Positions 8,921 to 38,243 of a stretch of 38,243 nucleotides of DNA are shown here, piece by piece. Made by a program: the position numbers and the translations under genes. Every line of letters begins with the position of its first letter. The first letter of the stretch is position 1. A model generated the notes under the pieces. It saw only the letters and a program-made list of their open reading frames with translations. It searched no databases and was not told the origin of the DNA. Source of the stretch: a virus; IMG/VR virus record IMGVR_UViG_3300028920_000152, positions 1-38,243 of that record. One strand, given 5' to 3'.

Positions 8921-10414
8921 ATGGCAGTAGGAACGCAAACCCCGCCTGATAATTCAAAAATCGTAAACGAAATGACCCACATACCGAGCGCAAAGGACCG
9001 CGTGAATTTTGTGCCGCTCACCGAGGACACGAAATATCTGTTTATGATGCACGCCTACCACGGCACCGGGGGCTTTCGGGATGGCAGTTATGTAATTCCG
9101 CACCCCAGGGAAGTTTTTTACGATGCCCGCAGGCAGTTGGCGTTTTACAAGAACTTTACGGCCCCGGTTGTGGACGCGATGGTTAATCCGGTATTTCACG
9201 ACCCGATTAAGCGGCAATTGTATGTCAACGGAACGGTGAAGGAATCCGGGCTTTTGGCACACGCTTTTCTTGATGATGCCGACAACGCCGGCCAGTCGTT
9301 TCACGACCTGATGCGCGATGCCGTGACCTTTGCGATCTTGCAAGGCGTGACTTTTGTGGTGATGGATAATTTCCCTGTCCAGCCGCAGGGCAAAACCGAT
9401 GCCATAGCGACCCGCACCCTGCCCTATGCCTACCTGAAAAAAGCCCACGAATATGTGGAATCGAAAACTGACCGCTTTGGCAGGTTGGAATGGATCATCT
9501 TCACCGACGACCCGGACCTGACCAAAACCGCAACCGGCAGGGTAATCAAAGAAGAGCGGTTTGTGAAATACGACGCCGTGAATCGGGTAGTGATGAAAAA
9601 GGCTGCAGCCGGGGCCGGGTATGTTGAGCTTGAAAGCGTGCCACACGGACTTTTCCGGGTGCCGATTGTGCCTATCATTTTCGGCAAGAAAAAGAGCAGC
9701 AAAGAAATCATGGTGGAGCCGCCCCACTACGATATTGCCAAGCTGAATTACGCCATTTTTAACAAGGATTCCGAGGTCCGCGACCAGGAGCGGGCACAGG
9801 GTTTTGCCGTGTTGTATGTCCAGACCGAGAACGTGGGCAACATCACCCTTGGGGTTCACAACGCTTTAATTATCCCGATGGGGGCCAATATCGAACCTGG
9901 TTATGCCTCACCCCCGCCGGAGATCCTTACCATGCTGCGGAAGGGCAACGAGGAATTGCGCGATGACCTTTTCCGCATTGCCGGCCAGCGTGGGGTAATC
10001 GGAATACAGGAAGCCAAGTCTGGTGTGGCGATGCAATGGGAATTCCGGGCAGAAGAGCATGTATCACAGATGGTTTCCCAAAGGGCCAAGGCCGCAGAAA
10101 TGGCCGTTTTTGCGCTGTTTGAGGAATATGCGATGGAAGGCGCGGAACTCGAGTCAACATACCCGACTGAATTCGCCCCCAGGGATGAGATCAACGAACT
10201 CGACCAGGTTGAGCGGGTTCTGGACATGGGTATGCCCACAAAAGCGTCTGTTTTGCTCAAAAAGAAGGCATTTACGGCGGTGACGGTCAAAGAGGACCAG
10301 GAAGATGTTGACGCGGCCCTGGAAGAATTCGACGCATTTGAGGAAGAGACCAGGCAGAACAAAGACGCGGCGGCGGCGGCAATGGCGGCAAATTTTGCCC
10401 AACGGACTGAATAA
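8921..10414 (+). CDS. Portal protein (DUF4055-like)
   Basis: 497 aa, GGAGG upstream of ATG 8921. The N-terminal part (REVFYDARRQLAFYKNFTAPVVDAMVNPVFHDP... GQSFHDLMRDAVTFAILQGVTFVVMDNFP) matches the DUF4055 portal pattern, with a middle wing (EWIIFTDDPDLTKTATGRVIKEERFVKYD) and a helical stem/crown (QRGVIGIQEAKSGVAMQWEFRAEEHVSQMVSQRAKAAEMAVFALFEEYA). It forms the dodecameric entry ring at the capsid vertex and docks TerL. Its stop overlaps the next ATG (TAATG), and it lies directly after terL as usual. Confidence 0.88.
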   Translation: MAVGTQTPPDNSKIVNEMTHIPSAKDRVNFVPLTEDTKYLFMMHAYHGTGGFRDGSYVIPHPREVFYDARRQLAFYKNFTAPVVDAMVNPVFHDPIKRQLYVNGTVKESGLLAHAFLDDADNAGQSFHDLMRDAVTFAILQGVTFVVMDNFPVQPQGKTDAIATRTLPYAYLKKAHEYVESKTDRFGRLEWIIFTDDPDLTKTATGRVIKEERFVKYDAVNRVVMKKAAAGAGYVELESVPHGLFRVPIVPIIFGKKKSSKEIMVEPPHYDIAKLNYAIFNKDSEVRDQERAQGFAVLYVQTENVGNITLGVHNALIIPMGANIEPGYASPPPEILTMLRKGNEELRDDLFRIAGQRGVIGIQEAKSGVAMQWEFRAEEHVSQMVSQRAKAAEMAVFALFEEYAMEGAELESTYPTEFAPRDEINELDQVERVLDMGMPTKASVLLKKKAFTAVTVKEDQEDVDAALEEFDAFEEETRQNKDAAAAAMAANFAQRTE

Positions 10415-11517
10415 TGCCGATTAACCCGGTTACGCCTGAATTTGGCAAATATTCGGCAAAAACAGAGCAATTGTGGGCGCAACTGGCCGACAAAATCATT
10501 GCGCTTACCGATGCCGGAGTGCCCCCGGGCGAGGCCGTGGATATTGCCGTATCCGGGCTTGGGGTGACAACATACCTACGGCTTGAGATCGTGGACAAGT
10601 GCTTGACAGTGCTTTCCGGGCGCGGGGTTGATATTGCCGTGTCACCACTTGGCAAACGGAACTTCTGGCTACATCACAACTGGCCTGGCGAGGATCTCGA
10701 TTTATCGGCCAGAATCACAAAAATGGCCAAATTTCCGCTTTTAAAGGAAGAATTGCGGATTGCGATGAAGGATGCCCGTGGCTGGCGCGAGGCGGGCCGG
10801 GCACTCCAAAAGGCCGATATCATGAAAACCGATATTGCCGGGTATGTGGACGATCTGGAAAGCGCGGCCCGGCGGTTGATGCAGGGCGACCCTCAGGCGT
10901 TCCAGGCATACAGGCGGGCACTACGCAAGGCCGAGCGGAACCTTGCACGCCTGGCCCAAGGCGGAGCCCCTACAATGCGGCTCAAGAAAGCCGTGGCCAA
11001 TTTGGTCAAGGTATCCCAGGAAACCAGCACAGAGGCCCTGGATAAAGCTATGGATAGGCTTGTGAGGGCAAAGGGCAACTACAACGCCAACCGGATAGCC
11101 CGCACGGAAATGACCAAAGCCTATGCCCAGGGAACCTATGCGCGGATAAAGCAAGACAGCGATGTGGTTGCCATAAAATATTCGCTTTCCGACCGGCACC
11201 CTGCCCCAGATATCTGCAATCTCCATACCGGGGTAAATGCTCACGGTTTGGGGCGCGGCGTCTATCCGCTGGACAGCCTGCCAAGCTACCCATTTCACCC
11301 ACATTGTTTGTGCGTTATGAGCAATGTATATTCTGGTACAGTGGAGGCACGGCAACAGGCGCAGGCCGAATACCTACAAAAAGCATCTGAAACAGAGCGC
11401 AAGGCCATCATGGGCAAGGCCGGGGCGGAAGCCTTTGCGTTGAACCCGCAGCGGTGGCCGGAATTGGTCAAAGGATTCGAGGGCTACAAACATATTGATG
11501 CCCTGATTCAACCATAA
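10414..11517 (+). CDS. MuF/SPP1 gp7-like minor head protein
   Basis: 367 aa. The C-terminal domain has NRIARTEMTKAYAQGTYARIK, a DRHPAPDICNLH segment, and LPSYPFHPHCLCVM, the typical Cys/His signature of phage head morphogenesis (MuF) domains. The helical N-terminal half probably contacts portal or scaffold. These proteins are minor capsid components and may be ejected with DNA. Location directly after the portal is canonical. Confidence 0.87.
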   Translation: MPINPVTPEFGKYSAKTEQLWAQLADKIIALTDAGVPPGEAVDIAVSGLGVTTYLRLEIVDKCLTVLSGRGVDIAVSPLGKRNFWLHHNWPGEDLDLSARITKMAKFPLLKEELRIAMKDARGWREAGRALQKADIMKTDIAGYVDDLESAARRLMQGDPQAFQAYRRALRKAERNLARLAQGGAPTMRLKKAVANLVKVSQETSTEALDKAMDRLVRAKGNYNANRIARTEMTKAYAQGTYARIKQDSDVVAIKYSLSDRHPAPDICNLHTGVNAHGLGRGVYPLDSLPSYPFHPHCLCVMSNVYSGTVEARQQAQAEYLQKASETERKAIMGKAGAEAFALNPQRWPELVKGFEGYKHIDALIQP

Positions 11518-11533
11518 CCCGTGGAGGGGGATT

Positions 11534-12421
11534 ATGAAAATAGACGGATACAAGTTTGGGCAAAAAAACAATTGGCGAAAATGGGCATGGAACAGAGCTA
11601 AGGAAATAATATCGCAAGGCGGTGTTTTACCCAAAAACGCAAACATAATGTATTTGGCTGGAATGCAAGATTTGGACAGGGCCGTTGCGACATCAAAAGG
11701 GTTTAACCCAAACAACATGATTGCAGTTGATATTAACAGCCGGGTAGTCAACCACGCAAGAGAAAAAAAGTGTCTGGCGGTTAAATCAGATCTGAATTCA
11801 GCGATAGCGGCCATTTCTTTACTTAATAAAAAAATAGACGTATTGGTATGCGATTTGTGTTGTGGGCTAACTACGCAAATAAAAGAATTGATAGATTTGT
11901 TGTCTCGCGGGTGCATATATAACGAAAATACAATGCTAAATTCGTACCCATTGTCAGACAGCGCCGCAATAATAATAAATTTGCTTCGAGGTCGTGATGC
12001 CGGGGAAGTTCTTGATTTGTATGCAGGCATTCAAGATAGACATCGCGGGAAAATGGTTTACAGTTATTATGTTCGGATGCTAAGGCAAACAACGGAAAAA
12101 GACATAATAAAACATCACGGAAGCAGAGACAATTTTGTTTCTTTCTGCAAAAATTGCGGCATGGGTGACGGCAAAAACTTTGAAGGATTGCTTGATTATT
12201 GGATTCAACGAACAACGATAGGAGAGAGATTTTGCTTTAATTCGTATAGCACGAATAATGCAAAAATGGATTCCGTCGTGTTTAAGTATCTATCCCCCAT
12301 TAACGGGGCGTGCCCAGAAACAAAAAAAGAAATAACAGAAGCAAAAAGAAGCATTGCCTCTGTTTTTGCCATTCAAACAATGAAAAAGGCCGGGAAGCTT
12401 AAACCGTGCCCGGCTTTTTAA
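11534..12421 (+). CDS. Rossmann-fold protein, possible SAM methyltransferase (moron)
   Basis: 295 aa, start behind GTGGAGG (11521-11527). An N-terminal Rossmann-like core (NIMYLAGMQDLDRAVATSKGF... MIAVDINSRVVNHAREKKCLAVKSDLNSAI... IDVLVCDLCCGL) resembles class I methyltransferases: acidic strand-2 end (AVDIN) and strand-4 motif (VCDLCCG). Two Cys later (SFCKNCGMGDG) may bind metal. It interrupts the head operon, is visibly more A/T-rich than its neighbours and ends in its own intrinsic terminator, so it looks like an acquired moron. The substrate is unknown and the methyltransferase reading is inference. Confidence 0.6.
   Translation: MKIDGYKFGQKNNWRKWAWNRAKEIISQGGVLPKNANIMYLAGMQDLDRAVATSKGFNPNNMIAVDINSRVVNHAREKKCLAVKSDLNSAIAAISLLNKKIDVLVCDLCCGLTTQIKELIDLLSRGCIYNENTMLNSYPLSDSAAIIINLLRGRDAGEVLDLYAGIQDRHRGKMVYSYYVRMLRQTTEKDIIKHHGSRDNFVSFCKNCGMGDGKNFEGLLDYWIQRTTIGERFCFNSYSTNNAKMDSVVFKYLSPINGACPETKKEITEAKRSIASVFAIQTMKKAGKLKPCPAF
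12383..12419 (+). terminator. Intrinsic terminator after the moron
   Basis: GCCGGG (12389-12394) pairs with CCCGGC (12409-12414), with an A-run before and five T after (12415-12419). The hairpin overlaps the last codons of the gene. Confidence 0.8.
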
Positions 12422-12451
12422 TATTTAACCATAAACAAGTGGAGGTGTTTC

Positions 12452-12628
12452 ATGCAGGCAGAGGTCGGGAAAATCAAAATCAGTTGGGGCAAGCGCAAAT
12501 TGACGCTTACCCTGGACGAAGCGGTGGAGTTGAAAGCAAAATTGCACGAGGTCATTGACGCCGTGCGGAAACTTTCTGGTGCTGAAGCAACTCTGAAAGT
12601 GGACGCGGGCAGAACATCAAGCAAATAA
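12452..12628 (+). CDS. Small helical hypothetical protein (58 aa)
   Basis: ATG 12452 behind GTGGAGG (12439-12445), frame to TAA 12628. Product: a basic N-terminus (KIKISWGKRKLTLTLDEA) and an amphipathic helix (VELKAKLHEVIDAVRKL). It lies between the moron and the Gly/Lys-rich protein. Possibly a capsid accessory; not recognised. Confidence 0.65.
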   Translation: MQAEVGKIKISWGKRKLTLTLDEAVELKAKLHEVIDAVRKLSGAEATLKVDAGRTSSK

Positions 12629-12639
12629 AGGGAGAAATC

Positions 12640-12795
12640 ATGGCAAAAGGTTACGGCCTTAAAACAGGCATGGGAAAAGGCAAAGGTGTTTCCGGTGGCG
12701 GGCGCAGAAATATCAACACGGGCGGCTGCAAAAGTGGAGGCCCGGGCTACGGAAAGGGAGGCGGCAAAGGCCAGGGAAAAGGGCGCAAAGGATAA
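12640..12795 (+). CDS. Gly/Lys-rich basic mini-protein (51 aa)
   Basis: ATG 12640 follows AAAGGGAGAAATC; the frame ends at 12795. The peptide is almost entirely Gly, Lys, Arg and Ser (MAKGYGLKTGMGKGKGVSGG... GGKGQGKGRKG) with a single Cys. No folded domain is expected. Placement just before the scaffold and coat genes suggests a virion-associated nucleic-acid-binding or condensing peptide, but that is inference. Confidence 0.65.
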   Translation: MAKGYGLKTGMGKGKGVSGGGRRNINTGGCKSGGPGYGKGGGKGQGKGRKG

Positions 12796-12856
12796 AAACT
12801 TGCGCGATTAAACAAAAGCATTTAATTTAAACTCAGAACAAAAGGAGTCCTTTCAC

Positions 12857-13573
12857 ATGCCTACACTCGATGACGTAAAATCGGCGTTGCTCAAAGACGG
12901 CGAAAACGGCGAAGAGTTATACAAGGTTGTATCTGGCGCAATCCTGAACGCAAAAAACGACAGGAAAACGCACGTGCAAAACCTTGAGGCGCAAAACTCA
13001 CGGCTTTTAGAGGCCGCCAAGGAACTCGGTTACGACGGAACGGGCGAGATTTCGGGCTTTATTTCGGAAACGAAAAAGGCAATCGAAACTGGCCGGGCCA
13101 ACACCGAAAAATTGACGGGCGAACAGAAGCGGTTGCAGGATCTGGAAAACCAAATCAAATCAGTTTCGGCGAACTTTGCCAAATCCGAATCGGAGCGCAT
13201 TGCTTTGATTGAAAAGGCAAATAAGTCGAAGGTGAAAGATGCGGTGCTTCCACTTCTGAAAGGCAAAATATTTTCTGCGGAGTTACGGGCAGAAACTATT
13301 GCCAATTCGGGCAAGGCCAAGCTGTCGGACGACGGCAAGGTGCTGTGGGTTGAAGGCGAAGAGCAAATGGATCTGGCAAAGGGCGTAGAAAGCTATTTGT
13401 CGGCTCCTGAAAATAAAGACGATTTGCGCAATTCACAGCAACCAGGACCGGGCGGCAAGCCCGGTGGGGAGCCAGCCCCCGGAAAGACAATGACCCGCTC
13501 CGCTTTTCTCGCTTTGAGCCCACAGGACCAAAGCGCAAAAGTACACGAAGGCGTGGCCGTCGTGGACGGCTAG
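12857..13573 (+). CDS. Capsid scaffolding-like protein
   Basis: 238 aa, AAAGGAG upstream. The N-terminus (MPTLDDVKSALLKDGENGEELYKVV) precedes a long coiled coil (about 30-125, heptad-like, Lys/Glu/Gln-rich). A Pro/Gly-rich segment (PGPGGKPGGEPAPGK) then leads to a short C-terminal helix (MTRSAFLALSPQDQSAKVHEG) that probably binds coat. Gene order scaffold then coat is standard. The family resembles phage minor structural/scaffold proteins; the exact family is not certain. Confidence 0.75.
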   Translation: MPTLDDVKSALLKDGENGEELYKVVSGAILNAKNDRKTHVQNLEAQNSRLLEAAKELGYDGTGEISGFISETKKAIETGRANTEKLTGEQKRLQDLENQIKSVSANFAKSESERIALIEKANKSKVKDAVLPLLKGKIFSAELRAETIANSGKAKLSDDGKVLWVEGEEQMDLAKGVESYLSAPENKDDLRNSQQPGPGGKPGGEPAPGKTMTRSAFLALSPQDQSAKVHEGVAVVDG

Positions 13574-13596
13574 CCTAAAAAACAGGAGCAAGGTCA

Positions 13597-14757
13597 ATGT
13601 CAAACACCCTCACTAATCTGATTCCAGATGTCATTGTTGGTCTGGAAACCGTTTCACGCGAAATGGTTGGACTCATCCCCCGCGTGGCCCGTAGTTCGAC
13701 AGCAGAACGCAGCGCAAAAGGCACAACCGTGCGCAGCCCCGTGGCCCCGAAGCAGACCGCAGGCGCGATCACCACGGCAGCAACAGCCCCGGCAATCAGC
13801 GACAACACTTACACCAACCGCACAATCAGCCTGTCAAACCTTTATGCCACTCGTTGGCATTATGAAGGCGAAGAGCAAGCTGCCCTGCGTTTGACCGGCG
13901 TTTATTCGTCGCTGTTTGCGCAGAACGTGGCCCAGGCCATGCGTGCCTTGGTTACGGAAATCGAAACCGACCTGGCCGAATTGTATTACAACGCTTGCCG
14001 TGCATACGGCACCCAGGGCACAACCCCATTTGCATCTGACCTTTCGCCGCTTTCCGCTTGCAAAGCCATGTTGGATAAAAATGGCGCTCCCGGCGCAGAC
14101 CGTCATTTGGTGATGAGTAACGAAGCCGCTTATACGATGCGGAACCTGACCCAATTGACCAACGTGAATCAGTCCGGCACAAGCAAGGTTTTGGTTGAGG
14201 GTTCTTTCATGAACATCATGGGTTTTGACCTTGCTGAATCTGCATACATCCAGACGCATACGGCTGGCGACTCAACCGGCCAAGATGTGAATGGCGGCGA
14301 CACAGCAGGCACGACATCAATCACTTTCCACGGTGCCAGTGGCAACGTGCTTGCTGGTGACATTATCAGCATTGCGACCGGCGACGATACTGGCCCCGGT
14401 GGATCGACCAACAAATATGTGGTCACTACCGCAGTTGATACGTCCGGTGAACTTGTTATCGGGTCTCCCGGTCTGTTAAACGAATGGGCAGACACCACAG
14501 AAATCGCGTTGAACACAAACGACTACGTTGCAAACCTTGCTTTCCATCGGAACTTCCTGGCCCTGGCAACTCGCCCGCCAATGAAGCCCGAGGGCGGCGA
14601 TGCGGCAACCGACGACGTTGTTGTGACCGACCCGGTGAGCGGTCTGTCGTTTCTGCTCTCCGTGTATCCTGGCTACCACACCAACCAGTATGAGCTTTCT
14701 GTACTGTGGGGCGTGGGCACGGGCAACCCGGAGCAGGGCGTCATTTTGATGGGATAA
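13597..14757 (+). CDS. Major capsid protein (P22 coat-like)
   Basis: 386 aa. The opening MSNTLTNLIPDVIVGLETVSREMVGLIPRV... TAERSAKGTTVRSPVAPKQTAG is the hallmark of the P22 gp5-like coat family, and the HK97-type core continues with RWHYEGEEQAAL and the ETDLAELYYNACRAYGT helix. An inserted beta domain (about 230-300, AGTTSITFHGASGNVLAGDIISIATGDD) matches the I-domain position in this family. It forms the icosahedral shell. A strong terminator follows. Its pairing with a siphovirus-like tail is a known kind of mosaicism. Confidence 0.92.
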   Translation: MSNTLTNLIPDVIVGLETVSREMVGLIPRVARSSTAERSAKGTTVRSPVAPKQTAGAITTAATAPAISDNTYTNRTISLSNLYATRWHYEGEEQAALRLTGVYSSLFAQNVAQAMRALVTEIETDLAELYYNACRAYGTQGTTPFASDLSPLSACKAMLDKNGAPGADRHLVMSNEAAYTMRNLTQLTNVNQSGTSKVLVEGSFMNIMGFDLAESAYIQTHTAGDSTGQDVNGGDTAGTTSITFHGASGNVLAGDIISIATGDDTGPGGSTNKYVVTTAVDTSGELVIGSPGLLNEWADTTEIALNTNDYVANLAFHRNFLALATRPPMKPEGGDAATDDVVVTDPVSGLSFLLSVYPGYHTNQYELSVLWGVGTGNPEQGVILMG

Positions 14758-14763
14758 CCTCGT

Positions 14764-14813
14764 AAAACGTTGGGGGGTGGGCCTTTTTCTTTGCTGACCC
14801 CCCGCGTTTTTTT
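14764..14813 (+). terminator. Intrinsic terminator after the coat gene
   Basis: AAAACG (14764-14769) with CGTTTT (14805-14810) outside, and GGGGGGT (14772-14778) with ACCCCCC (14797-14803) inside, then a T-run. It likely attenuates transcription between coat and tail genes. Confidence 0.85.
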
Positions 14814-14821
14814 ATTATCCC

Positions 14822-15226
14822 ATGAAAATCCACATCGAAGCAGACGGCGTTATAAACGCCTTGAGGCGGGCACCTTCCAAATTCCTTGGTGAGCTTCGGA
14901 AGGCGTTAAAAACATCCGCCACTATGGTGCAGGTATACGCCAGGAGTATTGACGGACACCGCTACACCTCGCGCGGCGGCTCACTTGCGCGGTCAGTCCA
15001 AGTCAAAACCGGCACCACATCCGCAACCGTTTATCTTGACACCGGTATTGCCAAATACGGCCCATTCATCCACCAAGGTTGGAAAAGGCCCAAAAGTAAA
15101 ACCGAATGGAGTTGGGCACCGGACCCATTTTTAAACAATGCCCTGGACGCAAACGAATCCAAAATCAAACGCGAAATAGCCGTGGCGATCGCACGCGGCA
15201 TAGTAAAGGCGGGGTTGCATGGCTGA
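14822..15226 (+). CDS. HK97 gp10-like neck/tail completion protein
   Basis: 134 aa. Pattern: ALRRAPSKFLGELRKALKTSATMVQVYARS, RYTSRGGSLARSVQVKTGTTSATVYLDTGIAKYGPFIHQGWKRPK, then WAPDPFLNNALDANESKIKREIAVAIARGI. This is typical of head-tail joining / minor tail proteins of the gp10 type. It has no clear ribosome site and lies only a few bases after the terminator T-run, so it may start on a short or read-through transcript. It overlaps the next gene by 8 nt. Confidence 0.75.
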   Translation: MKIHIEADGVINALRRAPSKFLGELRKALKTSATMVQVYARSIDGHRYTSRGGSLARSVQVKTGTTSATVYLDTGIAKYGPFIHQGWKRPKSKTEWSWAPDPFLNNALDANESKIKREIAVAIARGIVKAGLHG

Positions 15227-15641
15227 TTATATCGCAAGCGCAGACATTACCGACAGCCTGATATCGGAACTCACCACGGAAGTGACTGCAAAAATCGCCC
15301 TTTCCACCGAGGCACTAAACGACCTTGCCTGGACGCGCGGCGTTGCCCCGGACGATATCGAAACCGACGTTGACGCCGACGGTGACGGCTCCGGTGATGG
15401 TGAGGCGCATTATTGCGTCCGTAAATGGTGCGAGTATTGGGTCTGTGAAATGATCTGCCTGGACATGATCGGCAAAAACAACGACCCGGTGTTAGACGAC
15501 AAATGGCACCGCAAATTTGAGCTTTACCACAAAATGCGCACCGAAGAGGAAAAGAAAATCAATGCGGAAGTTTTGACCGGCACGGCTGACACAGCCCCGG
15601 AACGCAACAGCCTTGGAACGGCTTTGATATTCAGGGGGTGA
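15219..15641 (+). CDS. Head-tail connector-like protein with Asp/Gly loop
   Basis: 140 aa. A helical N-terminus (ADITDSLISELTTEVTAKIALSTEALNDLAW) and a later WCEYWVCEMICLDMIGKNNDPVLDDKWHRKFELYHKMRTEEEKK helix fit small adaptor proteins by position and composition. Between them lies DVDADGDGSGDGE, an Asp-rich loop that could bind calcium but does not match EF-hand spacing exactly. Family not certain. Confidence 0.65.
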   Translation: MADYIASADITDSLISELTTEVTAKIALSTEALNDLAWTRGVAPDDIETDVDADGDGSGDGEAHYCVRKWCEYWVCEMICLDMIGKNNDPVLDDKWHRKFELYHKMRTEEEKKINAEVLTGTADTAPERNSLGTALIFRG

Positions 15642-15644
15642 GGC

Positions 15645-15869
15645 ATGGGCGATGAATTCAATCTGGCCCTTTGTGACGAAAAACACAGGAATGTGAGGGA
15701 GAACCAGCAGGAAATGAGAACCGACATAAACAACCTTGGCAACATAGTACGGGAATCGACAGACGCACTCCACAAAAAGCTGAATTGGTTTTACGTCATT
15801 GCCATATCCACCTTGATCGGTGTTGTGGTGAGTCTGGCCAAAAGCATTGCAGTAAAGGGCGGGGCATGA
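15645..15869 (+). CDS. XhlA-like coiled-coil membrane protein (lysis or structural)
   Basis: 74 aa. An N-terminal coiled coil (RNVRENQQEMRTDINNLGNIVRESTDALHKKL) is followed by one membrane helix (WFYVIAISTLIGVVVSLA) and a short basic tail. This order resembles XhlA-type proteins that assist holins. The location between connector and tail genes, far from the endolysin at 31695, is unusual for lysis, so a structural role is possible. Its ATGA stop overlap couples it to the next membrane gene. Confidence 0.6.
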   Translation: MGDEFNLALCDEKHRNVRENQQEMRTDINNLGNIVRESTDALHKKLNWFYVIAISTLIGVVVSLAKSIAVKGGA

Positions 15870-16045
15870 AATCGCAATATATTACAATCGCATTTCTTTG
15901 CGCCGTCACCGCAATTTTAGGTGTGTGCGTTTTGTGGCAGATGGACAAAATGCGGATGCGCGGCCCGGGCTTTATTGAGCGCGGGGTATCTGCCCTTGAG
16001 ACAATAGCGGCAGAGGAAGCCAAGCAAACGGAGTTGATGCGATGA
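15866..16045 (+). CDS. Small N-anchored membrane protein
   Basis: 59 aa, ATG in ATGA overlap with the upstream gene. One hydrophobic helix (YITIAFLCAVTAILGVCVLW) is followed by an amphipathic helix (GVSALETIAAEEAKQTELM). With the preceding membrane protein it forms a coupled pair. Could be holin or spanin related; no lipobox or holin signature is clear. Confidence 0.6.
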   Translation: MKSQYITIAFLCAVTAILGVCVLWQMDKMRMRGPGFIERGVSALETIAAEEAKQTELMR

Positions 16046-16530
16046 AAAAAAATGCCAAGTATAGCCACGGCAGTTTCAAGCGGCAAGATTTGTCAAAAGT
16101 TGACCCTGCGGAATTCAACGATACCGAAATTGTAGGGTCGTGCTTTTATCAAGAAACGCACCATTCAAATGCATTGCCGGATAAAATGACCGGAGTTGTT
16201 TTCCGCAACTGCAATTTGGATAACTGCATTATTCCCAAAGGCGCAACGGTGAATGGCGGGACAAACAAGCATATCCAGAGCCAAAAGGATGGGGAATATT
16301 GGATTGTTGGTGTTGATGGATTGCCTATTGAGCCGAGAGACAAGGCCAAGTTTATTGAGTTTGGAATAAGCATTGCACCGCAGGACTTACCGGCAGAGCA
16401 ATTGGCTGAACCGATTACAGTAACCAATGACCCAAAAGTAATAGAGCAAAAAAAGATAGATGCTTTCCTTGCTGACGAAGAAAAGGTAAAAGAGGCGGCG
16501 TTGGCAGATGCAGCAAAGGCGGTTTCGTAA
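16042..16530 (+). CDS. Pentapeptide-like hypothetical structural protein
   Basis: 162 aa. The N-terminal half has loose pentapeptide-like strands (FKRQDLSKVDPAEFNDTEIVGSCFY, TGVVFRNCNLDNCIIPKG), then EYWIVGVDGLPIEP, and a C-terminal Lys/Ala helix. Coupled to both neighbours by overlaps (ATGA; TAATGG). Probably a structural accessory of the fibre that follows; weak family support. Confidence 0.55.
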   Translation: MKKNAKYSHGSFKRQDLSKVDPAEFNDTEIVGSCFYQETHHSNALPDKMTGVVFRNCNLDNCIIPKGATVNGGTNKHIQSQKDGEYWIVGVDGLPIEPRDKAKFIEFGISIAPQDLPAEQLAEPITVTNDPKVIEQKKIDAFLADEEKVKEAALADAAKAVS

Positions 16531-17651
16531 TGGCAATTAATGCTTATTACCACGTGACACCGGCAGGCGCAGGCGCAAAAAACGGAAACGATTGGGATAA
16601 CGCTTTTGACGAACCCGCCTGGGAAACCTTTATGGAGGGTGGTGGCCTTGCTGCTGGAGATGTGATTATCATCAAAGAAGGCACATACACGCTTGATTCC
16701 GACATTGACTTTAGCGCAATAAACGGAACAGTAACCGCACCAATTGCCTTGATTGGGGTGAAGGACACTACAACAAATGTTGGTGCAGCAGTTGTTTATT
16801 CTGATTGGGCAAGAACCGCAGGGGATAGACCATTTTTTGATACCGCTACTTTTCAATTTAAAACAGGTAGCTACACAATCATCAGAAATGTTTCTATTCA
16901 AGGGGCAGGGAATGACACTCTTGAAATGGGGATTGTTTGCGCGGTTGAAAATTGCAAAATTGAGAACGATAACGGAGTTTCAACAAATACCAATGCTCTC
17001 AAAATGACAACTTATGCAGGCGTAATTAATTGTGAAATTACATCGGCTAACACTAACGGTGTGAGTGTTGCCCAATACGGCAAAGTGCATAATTGTTACT
17101 TCCATGACTTTACTGGGGTAACGTATGGATCTGCGTTAACTCTTGCAACCCACGGCGGCTCAGTTGTTTCTAATATTTTCAACACGGCAAAAATCGGCAT
17201 AAATTCTGGTACCAGCTATGGTTACATGGTCTCGAATAATACGTTTTATGAATGCGACACAGCTGTTTCGGGGACAAGCGGTGGTGGAAATTTTTCCATA
17301 AATAACATTGTGGAGGGGTCTAATGCTGACGGATTCAAGTGGACAACCCAAACAGATAACAATTTCTTTTGGGGAAACCACGGTGATGATACCAGATGCA
17401 CGGATATGTGGGACGGCGTAGACATAACAACCGTTTTCCAAGATTACGAAGTAAGCACGGGCGATCCGAAATTTACAACAGCGGGCAGCGACTTTTCTTT
17501 GCAGTCAGACTCACCAAACATCAATAATGCAAACGGAATTACCGATGGCGTTGGCGCAACACCAGTAACCGGCAACCAAGGCGCATGGCAGGGCAATGAA
17601 CCGGGCGGCGGCGGCGGTGGTAACATTTTTGCACAAGGCATAATCCGATAA
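16530..17651 (+). CDS. Right-handed beta-helix protein (tail fibre/spike-like)
   Basis: 373 aa. It begins YYHVTPAGAGAKNGNDWDNAF and GDVIIIKEGTYTL, typical for the first turns of pectate-lyase-like beta-helices. Repeated N/S/T/V strands follow (IRNVSIQGAG, VENCKIEN, VINCEITS, VHNCYFHD, VSNIFNT, VSNNTFYEC, INNIVEG). The end SDSPNINNANGITDGVGA matches the closing turn. A Gly run precedes FAQGIIR at the C-terminus. Such proteins bind or degrade glycans in tailspikes. No catalytic residues are evident. A related fold is embedded in the tail hub protein at 25891-30387. Confidence 0.75.
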   Translation: MAINAYYHVTPAGAGAKNGNDWDNAFDEPAWETFMEGGGLAAGDVIIIKEGTYTLDSDIDFSAINGTVTAPIALIGVKDTTTNVGAAVVYSDWARTAGDRPFFDTATFQFKTGSYTIIRNVSIQGAGNDTLEMGIVCAVENCKIENDNGVSTNTNALKMTTYAGVINCEITSANTNGVSVAQYGKVHNCYFHDFTGVTYGSALTLATHGGSVVSNIFNTAKIGINSGTSYGYMVSNNTFYECDTAVSGTSGGGNFSINNIVEGSNADGFKWTTQTDNNFFWGNHGDDTRCTDMWDGVDITTVFQDYEVSTGDPKFTTAGSDFSLQSDSPNINNANGITDGVGATPVTGNQGAWQGNEPGGGGGGNIFAQGIIR

Positions 17652-32548: not shown

Positions 32549-32628
32549 CGGGCGCGGCTTCCCCCGCAGCGAGTGCCTCCACCACTCGACCCGTGGCCCC
32601 TGCCGGAGCAATCCGGTGGGGGTTTTTT
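32548..32628 (+). ncRNA. Candidate 3'-end small RNA with CCUCCAC loop
   Basis: ACGGG (32548-32552) pairs with CCCGT (32590-32594) around two hairpins: GCGG/CCGC (32554-32567) and CGAGTG (32570-32575)/CACTCG (32583-32588). This compact three-way junction is followed directly by an intrinsic terminator, giving about 80 nt of RNA. The second loop, CCTCCAC (32576-32582), is an exact complement of GTGGAGG, the start-site motif of at least eight phage genes. Promoter not seen; it would come from processing or termination of the late transcript. Confidence 0.45.
32597..32628 (+). terminator. Late operon intrinsic terminator
   Basis: CCCC then CCGGA-GCAA-TCCGG and GGGG, followed by TTTTTT. It ends the tail/lysis transcript. 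Confidence 0.9.
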
Positions 32629-32700
32629 ATTTAATTACTTAATATTGCGTTTTCGGGCTGATTTTACAGGTTTTTTGGTGAATTATTTTTGTGGTAGGTA

Positions 32701-32729
32701 TTGACAACAATAATAACAACAATTATATT
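32701..32729 (+). promoter_or_regulatory. Strong sigma-70 early promoter with operator-like repeats
   Basis: TTGACA (32701-32706), 17 bp, TATATT (32724-32729). The spacer holds two direct ACAACAAT boxes (32704-32711 and 32716-32723), and a TGACAA/TTGTCA dyad (32702-32707; 32731-32736) flanks the -10. It drives the second early block. Confidence 0.85.
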
Positions 32730-32774
32730 ATTGTCATGAGCAACGAAACAACAACCCAAAACCAGGAGGCCAAA

Positions 32775-32984
32775 ATGGCAACCACTATTGAACAAGTAAA
32801 AGCAGTAAAAGTTGGCGGCATGGCCCCCGATTGCTTTGGCAGAATGGCCGAAGTTGTCGAGATCAATCACCGTGGCCTTGATATCCACGGCAAGCTGTTT
32901 GTCCATTATTATGTGAAGTTTGGCGAGACTTCGCGGATTTCCAACAGCATCAAAGAGGGCCGGGTTGAATCTTTCGTGAATTAG
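32775..32984 (+). CDS. Small early protein upstream of ribozyme
   Basis: 69 aa, start ATG 32775 with AGGAGG at 32764-32769; ATG 32736 is possible but lies at the transcription start. A beta-rich small domain (EQVKAVKVGGMAPDCFGRMAEVVEINHRGLDIHGKLFVHYYVKFGETSRISNS). The stop TAG shares its G with the first base of the hammerhead ribozyme. First gene of the early transcript; function unknown. Confidence 0.65.
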   Translation: MATTIEQVKAVKVGGMAPDCFGRMAEVVEINHRGLDIHGKLFVHYYVKFGETSRISNSIKEGRVESFVN

Positions 32985-33033
32985 GCCGAAACCCCTTCGG
33001 GGGTCTGCCGGTAGGTCCGGCACTGATGAGGCC
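32984..33033 (+). ncRNA. Type II hammerhead ribozyme
   Basis: All core positions are met, in the order of a ribozyme open at stem II: GGCC (32984-32987), GAA plus A15.1 (32988-32991), stem III CCCC-UUCG-GGGG, U16.1 (33004), C17 (33005, cleavage site), stem I UGCCGG-UAGGU-CCGGCA (33006-33022), CUGAUGA (33023-33029), GGCC (33030-33033) closing stem II. Predicted self-cleavage is between 33005 and 33006, separating the first early gene's message from the SEC-C gene. Confidence 0.93.
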
Positions 33034-33066
33034 ACAAACCACAAACCAAGTAGGGCAGGACTGGAA

Positions 33067-33219
33067 ATGACTGAGAAAACAGCCAGATACCTTATCAACA
33101 ACGGTAAAGCCAAAAGCATAACCACTGGTGGCAAGGTCTATCGTCTTGAGGCAACGCCAAGGAATGCCCCATGTCCTTGTGGGTCAGGGAAGAAATACAA
33201 AAAATGTTGCGCCCAATAG
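33067..33219 (+). CDS. SEC-C motif mini-protein
   Basis: 50 aa. The C-terminus RNAPCPCGSGKKYKKCCAQ is a textbook SEC-C zinc motif (CPC...CC type), here the major part of the protein. The preceding segment (TARYLINNGKAKSITTGGKVYRLEAT) is a short beta hairpin. In larger proteins this motif binds zinc and contacts partners (SecA C-terminus). Its first message segment would be the 5'-OH fragment left by hammerhead cleavage. Confidence 0.8.
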   Translation: MTEKTARYLINNGKAKSITTGGKVYRLEATPRNAPCPCGSGKKYKKCCAQ

Positions 33220-33234
33220 GGCAGGAGGGGAACC

Positions 33235-33432
33235 ATGGATACAGCATATCAGCTTGGCAAAACGCAGTATTACTTGACCAGGGCGGCAAACGCCTTGTCG
33301 CATATCAAGGAAGAGAACAATCTGGAACGGGCTAAGATGTTCGCTGAAATTGTGCTTGCCGATATTCTTGAATTCTATGCCGAAATCGAGGCGGAAGCAA
33401 AGGAAGCAAAGGAGAGAAAAAATGCTGTCTGA
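33235..33432 (+). CDS. Small helical protein
   Basis: 65 aa, start behind AGGAGGGG. All-helical (LGKTQYYLTRAANALSHIKEENNLERAKMFAEIVLADILEFYAEIEAEAKEAKERKN), likely a helical hairpin or dimer. Overlaps the next gene by 11 nt. Function unknown. Confidence 0.6.
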   Translation: MDTAYQLGKTQYYLTRAANALSHIKEENNLERAKMFAEIVLADILEFYAEIEAEAKEAKERKNAV

Positions 33433-33607
33433 ATGTTGCGGCGCACCGGCCTTGGGCGAGCTTTCCGAAAATATTGGTCGCTGTTCCAAGTGCAAGGAAA
33501 TGGCGGATTTTTACGATGAGGACGCCGACCCGACGCCCTGGTGCAACTGGTGCGGAGCGCAAAGGCCAGAGCAATGCAAATGTGGGCCTATACCGGAGAA
33601 TTTCTAA
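33422..33607 (+). CDS. Small zinc-ribbon protein
   Basis: 61 aa with CxxC-like pairs: CCGAPAL, CSKCKEM, CNWCGAQ, QCKCG. This fits one or two zinc sites. Coupled to neighbours by overlap (11 nt) and TAATG. DNA-binding or partner adaptor role inferred. Confidence 0.65.
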   Translation: MLSECCGAPALGELSENIGRCSKCKEMADFYDEDADPTPWCNWCGAQRPEQCKCGPIPENF

Positions 33608-33783
33608 TGATTGCCCACATCGTTTGTATGCACTGCAAAAAAGAGTATGATCAAAAAACCTGGATTGGCGAGGGCGAATGCACGAGCCACGGGATTTGCC
33701 AGGAGTGTTTAAAAAAGCATTATCCGAGGGTGTGGGCCAAAAAATACGGAGGTGAGGCGAATGTCAAAAGCATTAAGGGCTGA
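33607..33783 (+). CDS. Small zinc-ribbon protein
   Basis: 58 aa, start in TAATG. CMHCKKEY and CTSHGICQEC supply Cys pairs for a zinc site; basic C-terminus. Another of the mini-gene series with TAATG/overlap coupling. Function unknown. Confidence 0.6.
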   Translation: MIAHIVCMHCKKEYDQKTWIGEGECTSHGICQECLKKHYPRVWAKKYGGEANVKSIKG

Positions 33784-34003
33784 GGCCCGGGCCGTGGTAG
33801 AGGATCTAAAAGGCCGGTTTGGTATCCTGGCCGGCCCGATTCTCTGCGAGGCGATTCTGGAAGCCTGCGAGATCAAGCGCGGGTATGTGGAGGTTTCCGA
33901 GCGTGTGGACGAAAAGACGGCGCGGACCGACATGGCGTTGAGCCGGTGGAGGACAAGCGATTATCTGGCAAGGCGCAAGCAGATATTGGGGGGCGCGGGA
34001 TGA
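33761..34003 (+). CDS. Helical early protein
   Basis: 80 aa, start behind GGAGG, overlapping the previous gene by 23 nt. Helical, with ALRAEARAVVEDLKGRFGILAGPILCEAILEACEI; no domain recognised. ATGA overlap with the next gene. Confidence 0.55.
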   Translation: MSKALRAEARAVVEDLKGRFGILAGPILCEAILEACEIKRGYVEVSERVDEKTARTDMALSRWRTSDYLARRKQILGGAG

Positions 34004-34191
34004 AGGGGGCAGGGGACCAAGAAGCTTGGGGGCCATACTACGGGCACCCGGGCGACCCACGGCAACCTGACCCACTGATTGCAGAATGCCCGGCCTGTGG
34101 GAACGACGCGGATTGCACCGATTACGTTTTCAATGAATGGGCAAAATTTACCTGTGACCGATGCGGGCACAAATGGAGGGAGGAATTTTGA
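34000..34191 (+). CDS. Small zinc-ribbon protein
   Basis: 63 aa, ATGA start. Two Cys pairs ECPACGNDADC and TCDRCGHKWREEF give a classical zinc ribbon. Probably an early regulator or inhibitor, unproven. Confidence 0.65.
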   Translation: MKGAGDQEAWGPYYGHPGDPRQPDPLIAECPACGNDADCTDYVFNEWAKFTCDRCGHKWREEF

Positions 34192-34193
34192 GC

Positions 34194-34292
34194 ATGGACA
34201 GGATGGACCGGAACGGCAGGATTTTGGTTGTGGCCCTGTCAATATTCACGGCATTGATGTTTGTTTTCGCAGTTGATCAGTGGTTTTTTTAA
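34194..34292 (+). CDS. 32-aa membrane microprotein
   Basis: ATG 34194 (a TTG overlap at 34188 is an alternative), ending TAA 34292, two bases before the next promoter's -35. Charged N-terminus (MDRMDRNGR) and one membrane helix (ILVVALSIFTALMFVFAV). Role unknown. Confidence 0.5.
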   Translation: MDRMDRNGRILVVALSIFTALMFVFAVDQWFF

Positions 34293-34293
34293 C

Positions 34294-34322
34294 TTGCATT
34301 ATTGTTGTTATTGTTGTATAAT
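34294..34322 (+). promoter_or_regulatory. Second early promoter
   Basis: TTGCAT (34294-34299), 17 bp, TATAAT (34317-34322), followed by GGAGGTG and the Cro-like gene. The spacer contains ATTGTTGTTATTGTTGT, whose reverse complement shares the ACAACAAT boxes of the 32701 promoter. Confidence 0.85.
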
Positions 34323-34344
34323 AAATATGAATGGAGGTGATACC

Positions 34345-34521
34345 ATGACAGACGCGGCACTGGAAAAACTGAAACGCAGCGCAAAGAGTGTTGGTTATAA
34401 GGCCATCGCGCATCATCTTGGATGGGAATATTGGAAAGTGGTGCAGAAAATGAACCGGTTTTCTAAGATGAAAGCTGACGACCTTGCCAAAATCGAAACC
34501 GCCATTAAAACACTATCATAA
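34345..34521 (+). CDS. Cro-like helix-turn-helix regulator
   Basis: 58 aa, ATG 34345 with GGAGGTG (34333-34339). KSVGYKAIAHHLGWEYWKVVQKMNRFSKMKADDLAKIETAIKTL reads as a small XRE/Cro-type helix-turn-helix with the usual closing helix. First gene of this transcript and next to two promoters sharing ACAACAAT boxes, so it is the natural candidate repressor. The sequence does not prove which boxes it binds. Confidence 0.65.
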   Translation: MTDAALEKLKRSAKSVGYKAIAHHLGWEYWKVVQKMNRFSKMKADDLAKIETAIKTLS

Positions 34522-34548
34522 CCCCTGCGCTTGTGGAGGGCGCAAACA

Positions 34549-35001
34549 ATGAACAAAATGGAAGCAATTGAGGCATTTTGCGAATATGAGGATGCCAAAA
34601 CCGTTGACGACTTGTATTTTCAAAGGCTTGGCATAGACGGCGCAATTGCCCGGCTGCGGCAAATCAAGGCCGACCTGGATGCCGAGCTTATTCTGCGCAT
34701 GGCCGAGGCCGGGATTAAGGAATTCCAATATGGTGAGCCGGGCCAGGGTGTAAAAGTCAAGGCCTTCAAAGAATCCAAAAAGACGATCAAGGACACCAAG
34801 GTTTTGCGCGAAATGCTTTGGTGTGATGATGAAGCCAAACGGGATATGGCCCGCAAAGCCCTGTCAGAAAGCCAATCGGCCTGGAAAACGGCCCAGGTCC
34901 GCGTGCTTGCGGATACGCTTGGGCTTGACCTTATCGAGACGACCTGGACGGACAAAATTGTGGTCGCGGTTATTCCTAACAGCGTGGAGGCAAAACAATG
35001 A
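34549..35001 (+). CDS. Conserved phage protein next to recombinase
   Basis: 150 aa, GTGGAGG (34533-34539) upstream. Helical, with AIEAFCEYEDAKTVDDLYFQRLGIDGAIARLRQIKADLDAELI and SAWKTAQVRVLADTLGLDLIETTW. Overlaps the ERF gene start by 4 nt. Probably part of the recombination module; exact role unknown. Confidence 0.65.
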   Translation: MNKMEAIEAFCEYEDAKTVDDLYFQRLGIDGAIARLRQIKADLDAELILRMAEAGIKEFQYGEPGQGVKVKAFKESKKTIKDTKVLREMLWCDDEAKRDMARKALSESQSAWKTAQVRVLADTLGLDLIETTWTDKIVVAVIPNSVEAKQ

Positions 35002-35783
35002 GCCAGGAGCAAAAAATATACGGGGCCATCATTGCGGTTATGCGCAAGGTCGGGGCCATCACAAAGGACAAGCGGAATACGCAACAGGGGTTTATGTTCC
35101 GGGGCATTGACGACGTTTACAACGCCTTGCACCCGCTCATGGCCGAGGCCGGGGTGTTTTCGGTTCCCGAGGTTCTGGAAAGCGAAACCGAGGAAAGGAC
35201 CACGCAAAAGGGCGCGACGCTGATTTATGAGAAATATCGCATAAAATACACGTTTTTTGCGGAAGATGGCTCAAGCATCACGGCCACGGTCAAGGGCATC
35301 GGCATGGACTCCGGCGACAAGGCCGGGAACAAGGCGATGGCCATAGCCCACAAATATGCACTTTTACAGGTTTTCGCCATCCCTACGGCTGATATGGTTG
35401 ACCCTGACGCGGAGAGTCACCCTGAGTTAAAGCCAAGGCAGGCCCGGGCCGTTAAAGCCACGCCTGCGGCCTCTAATGAAGCCACAGGGCCATCTGCGCA
35501 AAAACCGCAAGTCCACGAATCAAGCCTTCTTGTCATCATGGGCGGCGCAGTTGAAAAAACCGCAAAAACAGGCAAAAAATACTATGTGGTTGAGGCCGAG
35601 GAAGATTTGACCGGCGAAAAGATCACAGCCTCGACCTTTTCTGATACCCTGGCCAACGACTGCAACGACCTGGCCGGCCAAAAGGTTATCCTGACCTATG
35701 CCACCAACGGCAAATACCGGAATGCGGTATCGGTTGAACTTCACGCCCCAAACACAAAGAAAGAGGATTTGCCTTATGCTTGA
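34998..35783 (+). CDS. erf: ERF-family single-strand annealing protein
   Basis: 261 aa, GTGGAGG (34984-34990) upstream. Residues 1-135 match the ERF fold: KIYGAIIAVMRKVGAITKDKRN... FMFRGIDDVYNALHPLMAEAGVFSVPEV... SSITATVKGIGMDSGDKAGNKAMAIAHKYALLQVFAIPT. The C-terminal part (GGAVEKTAKTGKKYYVVEAEEDLTGEKI... LAGQKVILTYATNGKY) looks like an added OB-type beta domain after a flexible linker. The family pairs complementary single strands during recombination. Its gene set (RusA, ERF) fits a recombination-based early module. Confidence 0.85.
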   Translation: MSQEQKIYGAIIAVMRKVGAITKDKRNTQQGFMFRGIDDVYNALHPLMAEAGVFSVPEVLESETEERTTQKGATLIYEKYRIKYTFFAEDGSSITATVKGIGMDSGDKAGNKAMAIAHKYALLQVFAIPTADMVDPDAESHPELKPRQARAVKATPAASNEATGPSAQKPQVHESSLLVIMGGAVEKTAKTGKKYYVVEAEEDLTGEKITASTFSDTLANDCNDLAGQKVILTYATNGKYRNAVSVELHAPNTKKEDLPYA

Positions 35784-36458: not shown

Positions 36459-37139
36459 ATGGAACAGAAATTATTGCCTTGTCCGTTTTGTGGGTTGATG
36501 CCAGAGTTTTGGCAGAATAAGGCTTATGAGGCGTGGCACCTTGGATGTCCGAACGAGGATTGCCCAATGGAAAGCGTTGGCACAATTCCGTGCGCTACCA
36601 GAAAAAAGGCTATCGAGTTGTGGAACACCCGCCCCACGGCACCCAAAGGGGGAGAGGCAGCATCACAGGAACCCAACGATCTTAGATGGCAGAACGGAAA
36701 ACCTGTTAAGGTTTATCCCGCAGAGCCACCCAAAGGGGGAGAGACAAGCGAGGGGGAAGCGGTTGGCTCGATAATCCGGAAATGGTTAGAGGCAAACGGA
36801 TATGATGGGCTTTGCCAGGAGGAATGTGAATGCGGATGTAAGCTTGATGATCTTGCGCCATGCGAGTCAAGTGATTTTATAAACTGTATTCCGGGGCACA
36901 TCACTCCGGGGAAAGACGGATACGATTTTTTCATCAAGCCTGGCAAGGCCACCCGCCCCAAAGCACCAAAAGGTCTAAGGAGGGTTGATGTGGTTAGGAT
37001 CATTGACGATTTGCTCTACAACCTTAACAACCATCTGCACGACCCGCAAATGTCGCAGAGGGACATAATAAATGCCATTGACAGGCTTGCCACCGAGCCC
37101 GAGGCACCAAAGGAGGGGGAAAGGAATTATGATGTGTGA
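36459..37139 (+). CDS. Lar-like zinc ribbon fused to Cys-rich and helical domains
   Basis: 226 aa. Residues 1-60 (LLPCPFCGLMPEFW... CPNEDCPMESVG... ATRKKAIELWNTRP) match Lar-type restriction-alleviation zinc ribbons. Linkers RPTAPKGGE, EPPKGGE and ATRPKAPKG separate this from a second Cys cluster (CQEECECGCKLDDLAPCESS... NCIPG), a common phage mini-domain, and from a C-terminal helix (VVRIIDDLLYNLNNHL). A real Lar role in reducing host restriction is established for that family; here it is inference. The end EAPKEGE feeds the next ribosome site. Confidence 0.75.
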   Translation: MEQKLLPCPFCGLMPEFWQNKAYEAWHLGCPNEDCPMESVGTIPCATRKKAIELWNTRPTAPKGGEAASQEPNDLRWQNGKPVKVYPAEPPKGGETSEGEAVGSIIRKWLEANGYDGLCQEECECGCKLDDLAPCESSDFINCIPGHITPGKDGYDFFIKPGKATRPKAPKGLRRVDVVRIIDDLLYNLNNHLHDPQMSQRDIINAIDRLATEPEAPKEGERNYDV

Positions 37140-37469: not shown

Positions 37470-37844
37470 ATGGTCGATTTATATCAATGTATTCATTTTC
37501 AGGTATGCAAGATTTGGGAGCGTGACAAGCGATGTCCATATAAATGCTCAAAGCGGATTGATGGTGGACCCCCTGCAAGCGAGGGGGAAGCGGCCCGACT
37601 TTTGGACAAGCTCGAAAACGGGGCACAGTATCTGAAATGGACTGACCGTGAGCGGTATATGACTGATGTTGTGAGAGAGTGGAAAACCATCAAGGCCACC
37701 CGCCCCACACCGGCAGCACAAGAAGGCACGATCTACGTAGAAGGAAAAGGCCAAAAGCTCCACGGCAAATCAGTAGAACGTGTAATAGTCAATAAGGGCG
37801 CAGACCGGCATTGCACAGGCACGGCACAAAAGGAGGGGGAGTAG
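37470..37844 (+). CDS. Small protein with Cys knuckle and A-T-R-P-T-P linker
   Basis: 124 aa. N-terminal VCKIWERDKRCPYKC, then PASEGEAARLLDKLENG (DNA shared with 36745-36762), the linker ATRPTPAAQE and the end GTAQKEGE, which supplies the ribosome site of the next gene. Another mosaic of the same family. Confidence 0.65.
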   Translation: MVDLYQCIHFQVCKIWERDKRCPYKCSKRIDGGPPASEGEAARLLDKLENGAQYLKWTDRERYMTDVVREWKTIKATRPTPAAQEGTIYVEGKGQKLHGKSVERVIVNKGADRHCTGTAQKEGE

Positions 37845-37845
37845 G

Positions 37846-38243
37846 ATGGGAAAGCAGATAGGCTATGACGATTTGAAAAATTTACCACACGCAACAGATT
37901 GGACGCTTGTTGATGTTCATCTGTATGCCTATGGGGAATTGCCCGAACCAAGTGACATGAGGGATTTGGATCTCATAAAAGCCATGAGAGGTGTTTCCGA
38001 TAGATTGGAGAATGACCAAGATGATAAAATGCCACTGCGAAACAGCGTGGCCTATTTTATCAGGCTTTGTGCAGATTATATAGAGAGTCTGCGGGCCACC
38101 CGCCCCACGGCACCCGCACAGCAGGAAGCGGACAAGCGTGTTGCACGCAGGAGCGGAAAGCACCCAGTTGTCTTTTGCGCTCAATGTAAGCACATGCGGG
38201 ACGGATACACCACATGCAAGGTTGGCCTTGACCAGACAAAGGA
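37846..38243 (+). CDS. Mosaic small protein, 3' truncated by window end
   Basis: Open to the window end. N-terminal 80 residues (MGKQIGYDDLKNLPHATDWT... NSVAYFIRLCADYIESL) are not similar to the left copy, whereas the C-terminal part (ATRPTAPAQQEADKR... TTCKVGLDQTK) is the shared 150-bp module. It probably continues into a segment like SSCKFEC. Confidence 0.65.
   Translation, partial: MGKQIGYDDLKNLPHATDWTLVDVHLYAYGELPEPSDMRDLDLIKAMRGVSDRLENDQDDKMPLRNSVAYFIRLCADYIESLRATRPTAPAQQEADKRVARRSGKHPVVFCAQCKHMRDGYTTCKVGLDQTK
38094..38243 (+). repeat. 150-bp repeat, right copy
   Basis: Partner of 1533-1682: one mismatch at 38116, then 127 identical bases to the window end. The window stops exactly where the left copy reaches 1682. 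Confidence 0.97.

Follow-up and report, generated by a model that had tools for sequence, protein, structure and literature searches.

Does the junction between the first two early genes of this virus carry a genuine self-cleaving RNA, and what would a cut at this point mean for the early message? The window, that is to say the whole stretch of DNA analysed, corresponds to one complete IMG/VR virus record, 38,243 bases long, and the element in question lies at 32984–33033 on the plus strand.

Structure and identity of the element

Read directly, the 50 bases run GGCC, GAAA, CCCC, UUCG, GGGG, U and C up to the predicted cut and UGCCGG, UAGGU, CCGGCA, CUGAUGA and GGCC behind it. The parts of the element are as follows (evidence in brackets).

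32984–33033 (+): type II hammerhead ribozyme, whole element (sequence, fold, Rfam, relatives)
32984–32987 (+): stem II, first strand GGCC, paired with 33030–33033 (sequence, fold, covariation in relatives)
32988–32991 (+): GAAA, i.e., G12, A13, A14 and A15.1 (sequence)
32991–33004 (+): stem III, from A15.1 to U16.1, with UUCG tetraloop (sequence, fold, covariation in relatives)
33005–33006 (+): predicted cut between C17 (33005) and U1.1 (33006) (position deduced from the hammerhead fold)
33006–33022 (+): stem I with UAGGU loop (sequence, fold)
33023–33029 (+): CUGAUGA core (sequence)
33030–33033 (+): stem II, second strand GGCC (sequence, fold)
33034–33047 (+): 3′ tail, ACAAACCACAAACC (sequence)

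The complete type II core claimed by the first-pass annotation is borne out by the sequence and by a full-length covariance match: all positions of the hammerhead core (CUGAUGA, GAAA and U16.1-H17) are present, the A15.1–U16.1 pair is formed by 32991 and 33004, and C17 is at 33005. The three perfect helices that it described, with UUCG and UAGGU loops and an open stem II closed by GGCC, were recovered from both the sequence and the MFE structure, and there is no mismatch in stem II (4 bp, 32984–32987 with 33030–33033), in stem III (5 bp counting A15.1–U16.1, 32991–32995 with 33000–33004) or in stem I (6 bp, 33006–33011 with 33017–33022). The permutation runs GAAA, stem III, cut, stem I and CUGAUGA, in which the outer strands form the open stem II, while stems I and III are closed by loops; the cut predicted from this fold falls between 33005 and 33006, where the annotation had put it.

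The MFE structure of the 50-mer is the hammerhead fold, at −24 kcal/mol. This energy is ordinary for the composition (z −1.4 against dinucleotide-shuffled 50-mers), so that the identification depends on the core and on the match to the covariance model. In a transcript from 32738 to 33040, the MFE structure contains the hammerhead, and its three stems have pair probabilities of 0.89–0.99. With other end points (partial upstream or longer downstream sequence), alternatives can win in the folding model, which is one without tertiary contacts, and the share of the hammerhead in the ensemble is then 0.002–0.6; these alternative pairings mostly cost stem II. A candidate pseudoknot between loop I and the tail (GGU 33014–33016 with ACC 33038–33040) has only 3 bp, and its tail strand is 4 nt from stem II. 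In type II hammerheads, such a pseudoknot between loop I and the 3′ tail speeds cleavage at low Mg2+, and it is found in the majority of the family, not in all of it. Since the pseudoknot here is weak, the ribozyme of the window may be slow in the cell.

In the Rfam search, no family matched the window at its gathering score, and the match to RF02276 (Hammerhead_II) is visible by E-value search only. It covers the full length of the model (1–66 of 66) with 31.9 bits against a gathering cut-off of 37, i.e., about 5 bits short. It is nevertheless the best Rfam match of the window, with E = 0.009 when all of it is searched against 4227 families, E = 3.3e-5 over a 141-base stretch, and E = 2.1e-6 when the genome is searched against RF02276 alone. 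That is to say, the covariance check proposed by the first-pass annotation turned out well above background over the full length, but below the family cut-off. No second hammerhead was found by Rfam search of the whole window. A weak match to Six3os1_3, also below its cut-off, was judged to be chance, and a match to snoR116 at 37860–37930 (+), with 30.1 bits against a gathering score of 47, is probably chance as well.

Could two GC-rich hairpins simply mimic a hammerhead? The sub-threshold Rfam score and the near-equal stability of the shuffled 50-mers would both allow it. However, when 3.17 Mb of loci fetched by hammerhead patterns were scanned for the full set of structural features, 365 distinct examples were found, against none in mononucleotide shuffles of the same DNA, so that the complete motif is absent from 3.2 Mb of shuffled DNA; in addition, the placement of the element on the stop codon exactly matches that of its relatives. 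Chance resemblance is thus extremely improbable, and the E-value of 0.009 against all of Rfam together with the scan of shuffled DNA practically refutes it. The element at 32984–33033 is a type II hammerhead ribozyme.

Genomic setting

The features around the ribozyme in the window are listed below, in order along the plus strand.

32595–32624 (+): terminator-like hairpin and T run, closing the preceding (late) transcription unit (consensus scan)
32701–32729 (+): sigma-70-like promoter, TTGACA-17-TATATT (11 of 12 consensus positions; not by itself evidence of function)
32764–32769 (+): Shine-Dalgarno sequence AGGAGG of the first gene (sequence)
32775–32984 (+): first gene behind the promoter, ATG at 32775, 69 aa (ORF)
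32982–32984 (+): TAG stop, the G of which (32984) is the outermost base of stem II and pairs with C33033 (sequence)
33067–33219 (+): SEC-C (zinc-binding) gene, 50 aa, first gene after the cut (PF02810, E 4.3e-11)
33235–35783 (+): remaining early cluster, small genes including a zinc-ribbon-like one, then ERF (ORFs, Pfam and PHROGs matches)
34998–35783 (+): gene of the ERF ssDNA annealing protein (Pfam and PHROGs matches)

The hairpin at 32595–32624, which ends the lysis-side genes, has a 13-pair stem followed by TTTTATTT; the scan for terminator-like elements gave three in total, against 2.5 expected in shuffles. The promoter upstream and the SEC-C neighbour downstream are both where the first-pass annotation had reported them, and the start of the element on the stop codon of the first early gene also stands, as the TAG shares its G with stem II. 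The hammerhead occupies the junction between two genes on the same strand, with gene 1 ending at 32984 and the SEC-C gene starting at 33067.

The 69-aa product of gene 1 has no match in Pfam or PHROGs, its tblastn search against isolated phages gave none, and no DNA similarity to isolated phages was found for 32560–34300. Two homologues of gene 1, with 39–44% identity, were found in IMG/VR (loci L002 and L003). In neither of them is the gene followed by a hammerhead, and the next gene begins within a few bases, which marks the ribozyme as an insertion that this junction can do without. Since the ribozyme is not kept at the junction in these two loci, it is its own relatives, and not those of the locus, that lend support. 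As for the related phages in which the annotation proposed to look for the element, relatives of the ribozyme were found at many other loci, and none at the same junction in L002 and L003.

Two other observations were made in the window. The large terminase gene at 6787–8885 (+) looks fractured by a split intein, with the break in the P-loop: an ORF at 6787–7218 holds the N-terminal part of the terminase (..EQGGTS) and the N-terminal half of an intein (Pfam Intein_splicing positions 12–72), an ORF at 7178–7702 is a free-standing NUMOD4/HNH_3 endonuclease, and an ORF at 7554–8885 holds the C-terminal half of the intein (positions 121–155, ..VLVHN) and then SSKTH.. and the rest of the terminase. 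The layout is similar to that of the 'fractured genes' (Dassa 2009, cited in PMC10448857). In addition, linker-like stretches (ATRPTP.., ..APKGGE..) recur in otherwise different small proteins encoded at 1294–1845, 36459–37139 and 37470–37844.

Relatives of the ribozyme

Five IMG/VR loci (L004–L008) match a pattern modelled closely on the copy in the window, and when either stem II or stem I was left free in the pattern, at least 120 loci were found for each. In bacterial genomes, 18 loci were found by pattern, mostly in Clostridia and one in a deltaproteobacterium. For covariation, 271 matches were listed from patterns that demanded neither stem II nor most of stem III. Among these 271, stem II is intact at pair 2 in 97% (shuffles 42%) and at pair 3 in 71% (shuffles 39%), the pairs of stem III are intact in 85–97% (shuffles 42–46%), and pairs 2–4 of stem II as well as stem III covary, with many compensatory pair types. 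A pairing of at least 4 bp between loop I and the tail is present in 102 of the 365 relatives among the matches listed, against 24 in shuffles, and these counts agree with the published pseudoknot (PMC3088659). The copy in the window scores lowest of the close set (31.9 bits against 34.7–39.7 or more for the best copies of the pattern relatives). No constant neighbour gene of phage hammerheads was found among 216 flanking proteins, of which HU-like, ArdA/ArdC and Lar-like ones appear a few times.

Position relative to the upstream stop codon

The distance used here is the number of bases from the upstream stop to G12. The first survey pattern had GGCC fixed, which favours TAG, and therefore the stop statistics are quoted from scans with free stem II. 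Among the matches listed, the distances peak at 1–4, i.e., the stop abuts or overlaps stem II; 127 of 254 relatives have their stop at this distance. Both flanking genes could be called in 186 of these 254; among them the stop lies within 2–6 nt in 124, against 33 expected from uniform placement in their own gaps, and a comparable stop distance is found for 1.4% of random positions. The pattern persists if only ORFs of at least 100 aa are counted (74 of 109 listed matches no more than 4 nt from stem II) and if each locus contributes a single ribozyme (110 of 177 at 1–7 nt). The ORFs behind these counts are mechanical, except in two annotated phages, Marav and RcWaterboi. On the other side of the listed matches, the downstream start codon has a median distance of 25 nt past stem II.

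The kind of stop codon also follows the distance: among the matches listed, UAG is found in 56 of 107 at the overlap distance of 1–3 and in 13 of 104 elsewhere (Fisher 4e-10). An 'overlap' class defined by pairing favours G, so that the test by distance only is the fair one. Judged by these sequences, the overlapping stop is preferentially UAG, the G of which doubles as a stem II base, as it does in the window.

Type I phage hammerheads dock too, with 48 of 117 listed matches within −3 to 4 nt of the outer end. In one group of type I elements (L381–L460 and following), the stop lies some 10 nt inward from the outer end of stem I, at the CUGAUGA core, and this core itself contains UGA. Compaction of the phage genome could yield identical docking on stops. 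In the open-licence literature, no earlier report of hammerheads docked on stop codons was found.

Arrays and annotated phages

In other phages, hammerheads of this kind occur in arrays. The densest example is contig G008 (IMGVR_UViG_3300017605_000570; locus L501, 8500–19000), in which 24 type II hammerheads lie within 7.6 kb (9932–17520), all above the gathering score and all on the minus strand, with nearly one hammerhead per gene junction. Nearly all of these copies lie between a stop, which is mostly 1–7 nt before G12, and a Shine-Dalgarno sequence with a start codon about 10 nt past the match; stem II is often only GC/GC, and stems I and III vary from copy to copy with their pairing preserved. 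A second contig (G009; L022) has 11 type II hammerheads. Some copies in multi-ribozyme arrays also score below 37 bits. No earlier report of hammerhead arrays this dense was found in the open-licence literature.

Two annotated phages extend the picture. The Streptomyces phage Marav (OQ995441.1; L503), a cultured isolate, has 14 type II hammerheads at 40820–49689, and its record has no feature annotated at the matched site; several of the hammerheads begin 1–5 nt after the annotated upstream genes gp77, gp75 and gp74, and others after longer gaps. Salutena, a relative of Marav, also matches. The Mu-like Rhodobacter phage RcWaterboi (MW677528.1; L502) has one type II hammerhead, at 10392–10462 with 65.8 bits, which lies between the HU-like gp19 and gp20, and its first base, 10392, is the last base of the annotated gp19. 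Here the independent gene annotation agrees with the stop codon rule.

As far as was found, the position rule is what is new, namely that the ribozyme lies on or next to the upstream stop and that the UAG is recruited into stem II. The interest comes mostly from this rule and the arrays and less from the copy in the window alone, which adds a clean case, at the first early-operon junction, to a kind already known. The arrays, including the 14 copies in the cultured phage Marav, make the idea of message processing directly testable. As to the copy in the window, processing of the message is a role suggested in the first-pass annotation, and the position at a gene junction and the arrays of 14 and 24 copies fit it.

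Proposed function and alternatives

The element probably works as a type II hammerhead and cuts the early polycistronic message between genes 1 and 2. The ribozyme would cut itself between 33005 and 33006 during transcription. Because stem II is the open stem, the cut falls between two closed hairpins; by topology, neither new end is then unpaired, as one of them would be in type I and type III. The upstream message would end flush on stem III with a 2′,3′-cyclic phosphate and leave 3′ exonucleases without a tail; the downstream message would start flush on stem I with a 5′-OH. 3′ exonucleases need a single-stranded tail, and 5′-OH ends are poor substrates of decay that depends on a 5′-monophosphate. 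Both messages may therefore be protected at the new ends by flush hairpins, by which genes 1 and 2 would get separate lifetimes and lose their translational coupling. A terminating ribosome covers about 9 nt past the stop, so a ribosome finishing gene 1 would cover stem II and GAAA; since the stop codon forms part of stem II, cutting should wait for, or compete with, the termination of translation.

A broader reading, which we put forward tentatively, is that phage hammerheads punctuate operons and incorporate the stop codon in the ribozyme itself: nearly all genes would be set apart by a cassette of stop, ribozyme, Shine-Dalgarno sequence and start, and a long early transcript would be cut, under the gating of translation termination, to hairpin-capped messages of single genes. 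If so, the copy in the window would be a one-junction example of the system.

Two alternatives on function have to be weighed against, or added to, cutting by a working ribozyme. The element could be a true hammerhead by descent that is too slow to matter, either a decaying relic or a spacer that acts in the cell only through its structure, with hairpins that make the message of gene 1 more stable or reduce coupling. The weak pseudoknot, which leaves no good tertiary contact, would suit such a state, as would the lowest score of the close set, the single copy in this phage and the homologous junctions without ribozyme. However, all core bases and helices, which a relic would lose quickly, are intact, and the G of the stop codon is used in stem II as in other copies; moreover, among the matches listed, 263 of the 365 relatives lack a 4-bp pseudoknot, and many of them are equally well kept. 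We regard a slow or decaying element as quite unlikely. A switch gated by translation is somewhat less doubtful, though still rather unlikely, and it would add to cutting by a working ribozyme without replacing it: ribosomes on gene 1 would keep the ribozyme unfolded, and the cut would be made only if gene 1 is poorly translated or the last ribosome has gone, which would report the translation of gene 1 to the operon. It is consistent with a stop that touches stem II or reaches into it in most relatives among the matches listed, with the preference for UAG at the overlap, and with the cover that a terminating ribosome, judged by its general footprint, would give to stem II and GAAA; but genome compaction accounts for the position equally well, and type I hammerheads also dock on stops. 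Cutting of the early message by a working ribozyme remains the preferred explanation.

Comparison with known systems

Hammerheads with an open stem II from bacteria and phage-like sequences, to which the first-pass annotation had referred, are already published, which limits the novelty of the present one (PMC3088659). The same work described type II hammerheads in phages and the idea that they process long phage transcripts (Perreault 2011, PMC3088659); activity in vitro and in E. coli was shown for clustered phage-associated hammerheads, an RNA 5′ end of a halovirus was mapped within 3 nt of the hammerhead cut site, and 4 of 18 consensus hammerheads tested were inactive (PMC3088659). The role of hammerheads in bacteria and phages is treated in a review as an open question (PMC6155905).

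The element in the window is like the RF02276 type II hammerheads (PMC3088659) in its core, open stem II, order of helices, C17 cleavage site and phage context, and it differs from them in a short stem III with UUCG, a 4-bp stem II and a candidate pseudoknot of only 3 bp. With HHphage of the haloviruses HF1/HF2 (PMC3088659; PMC7230728) it shares the early region, a tailed virus and a gene boundary of a polycistronic unit. HHphage itself has a mapped RNA 5′ end near its cut site; its place is 13 nt ahead of the first ORF and its core is a variant one, whereas the copy in the window comes after gene 1 and has a canonical core. The hammerheads of ardA-region prophages (Agrobacterium, Azorhizobium, Clostridium scindens), which are active in vitro and were proposed as processors of long phage transcripts, likewise flank small phage genes (PMC3088659). 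Their clusters have few copies, whereas the window has one, contig G008 has 24 and Marav has 14.
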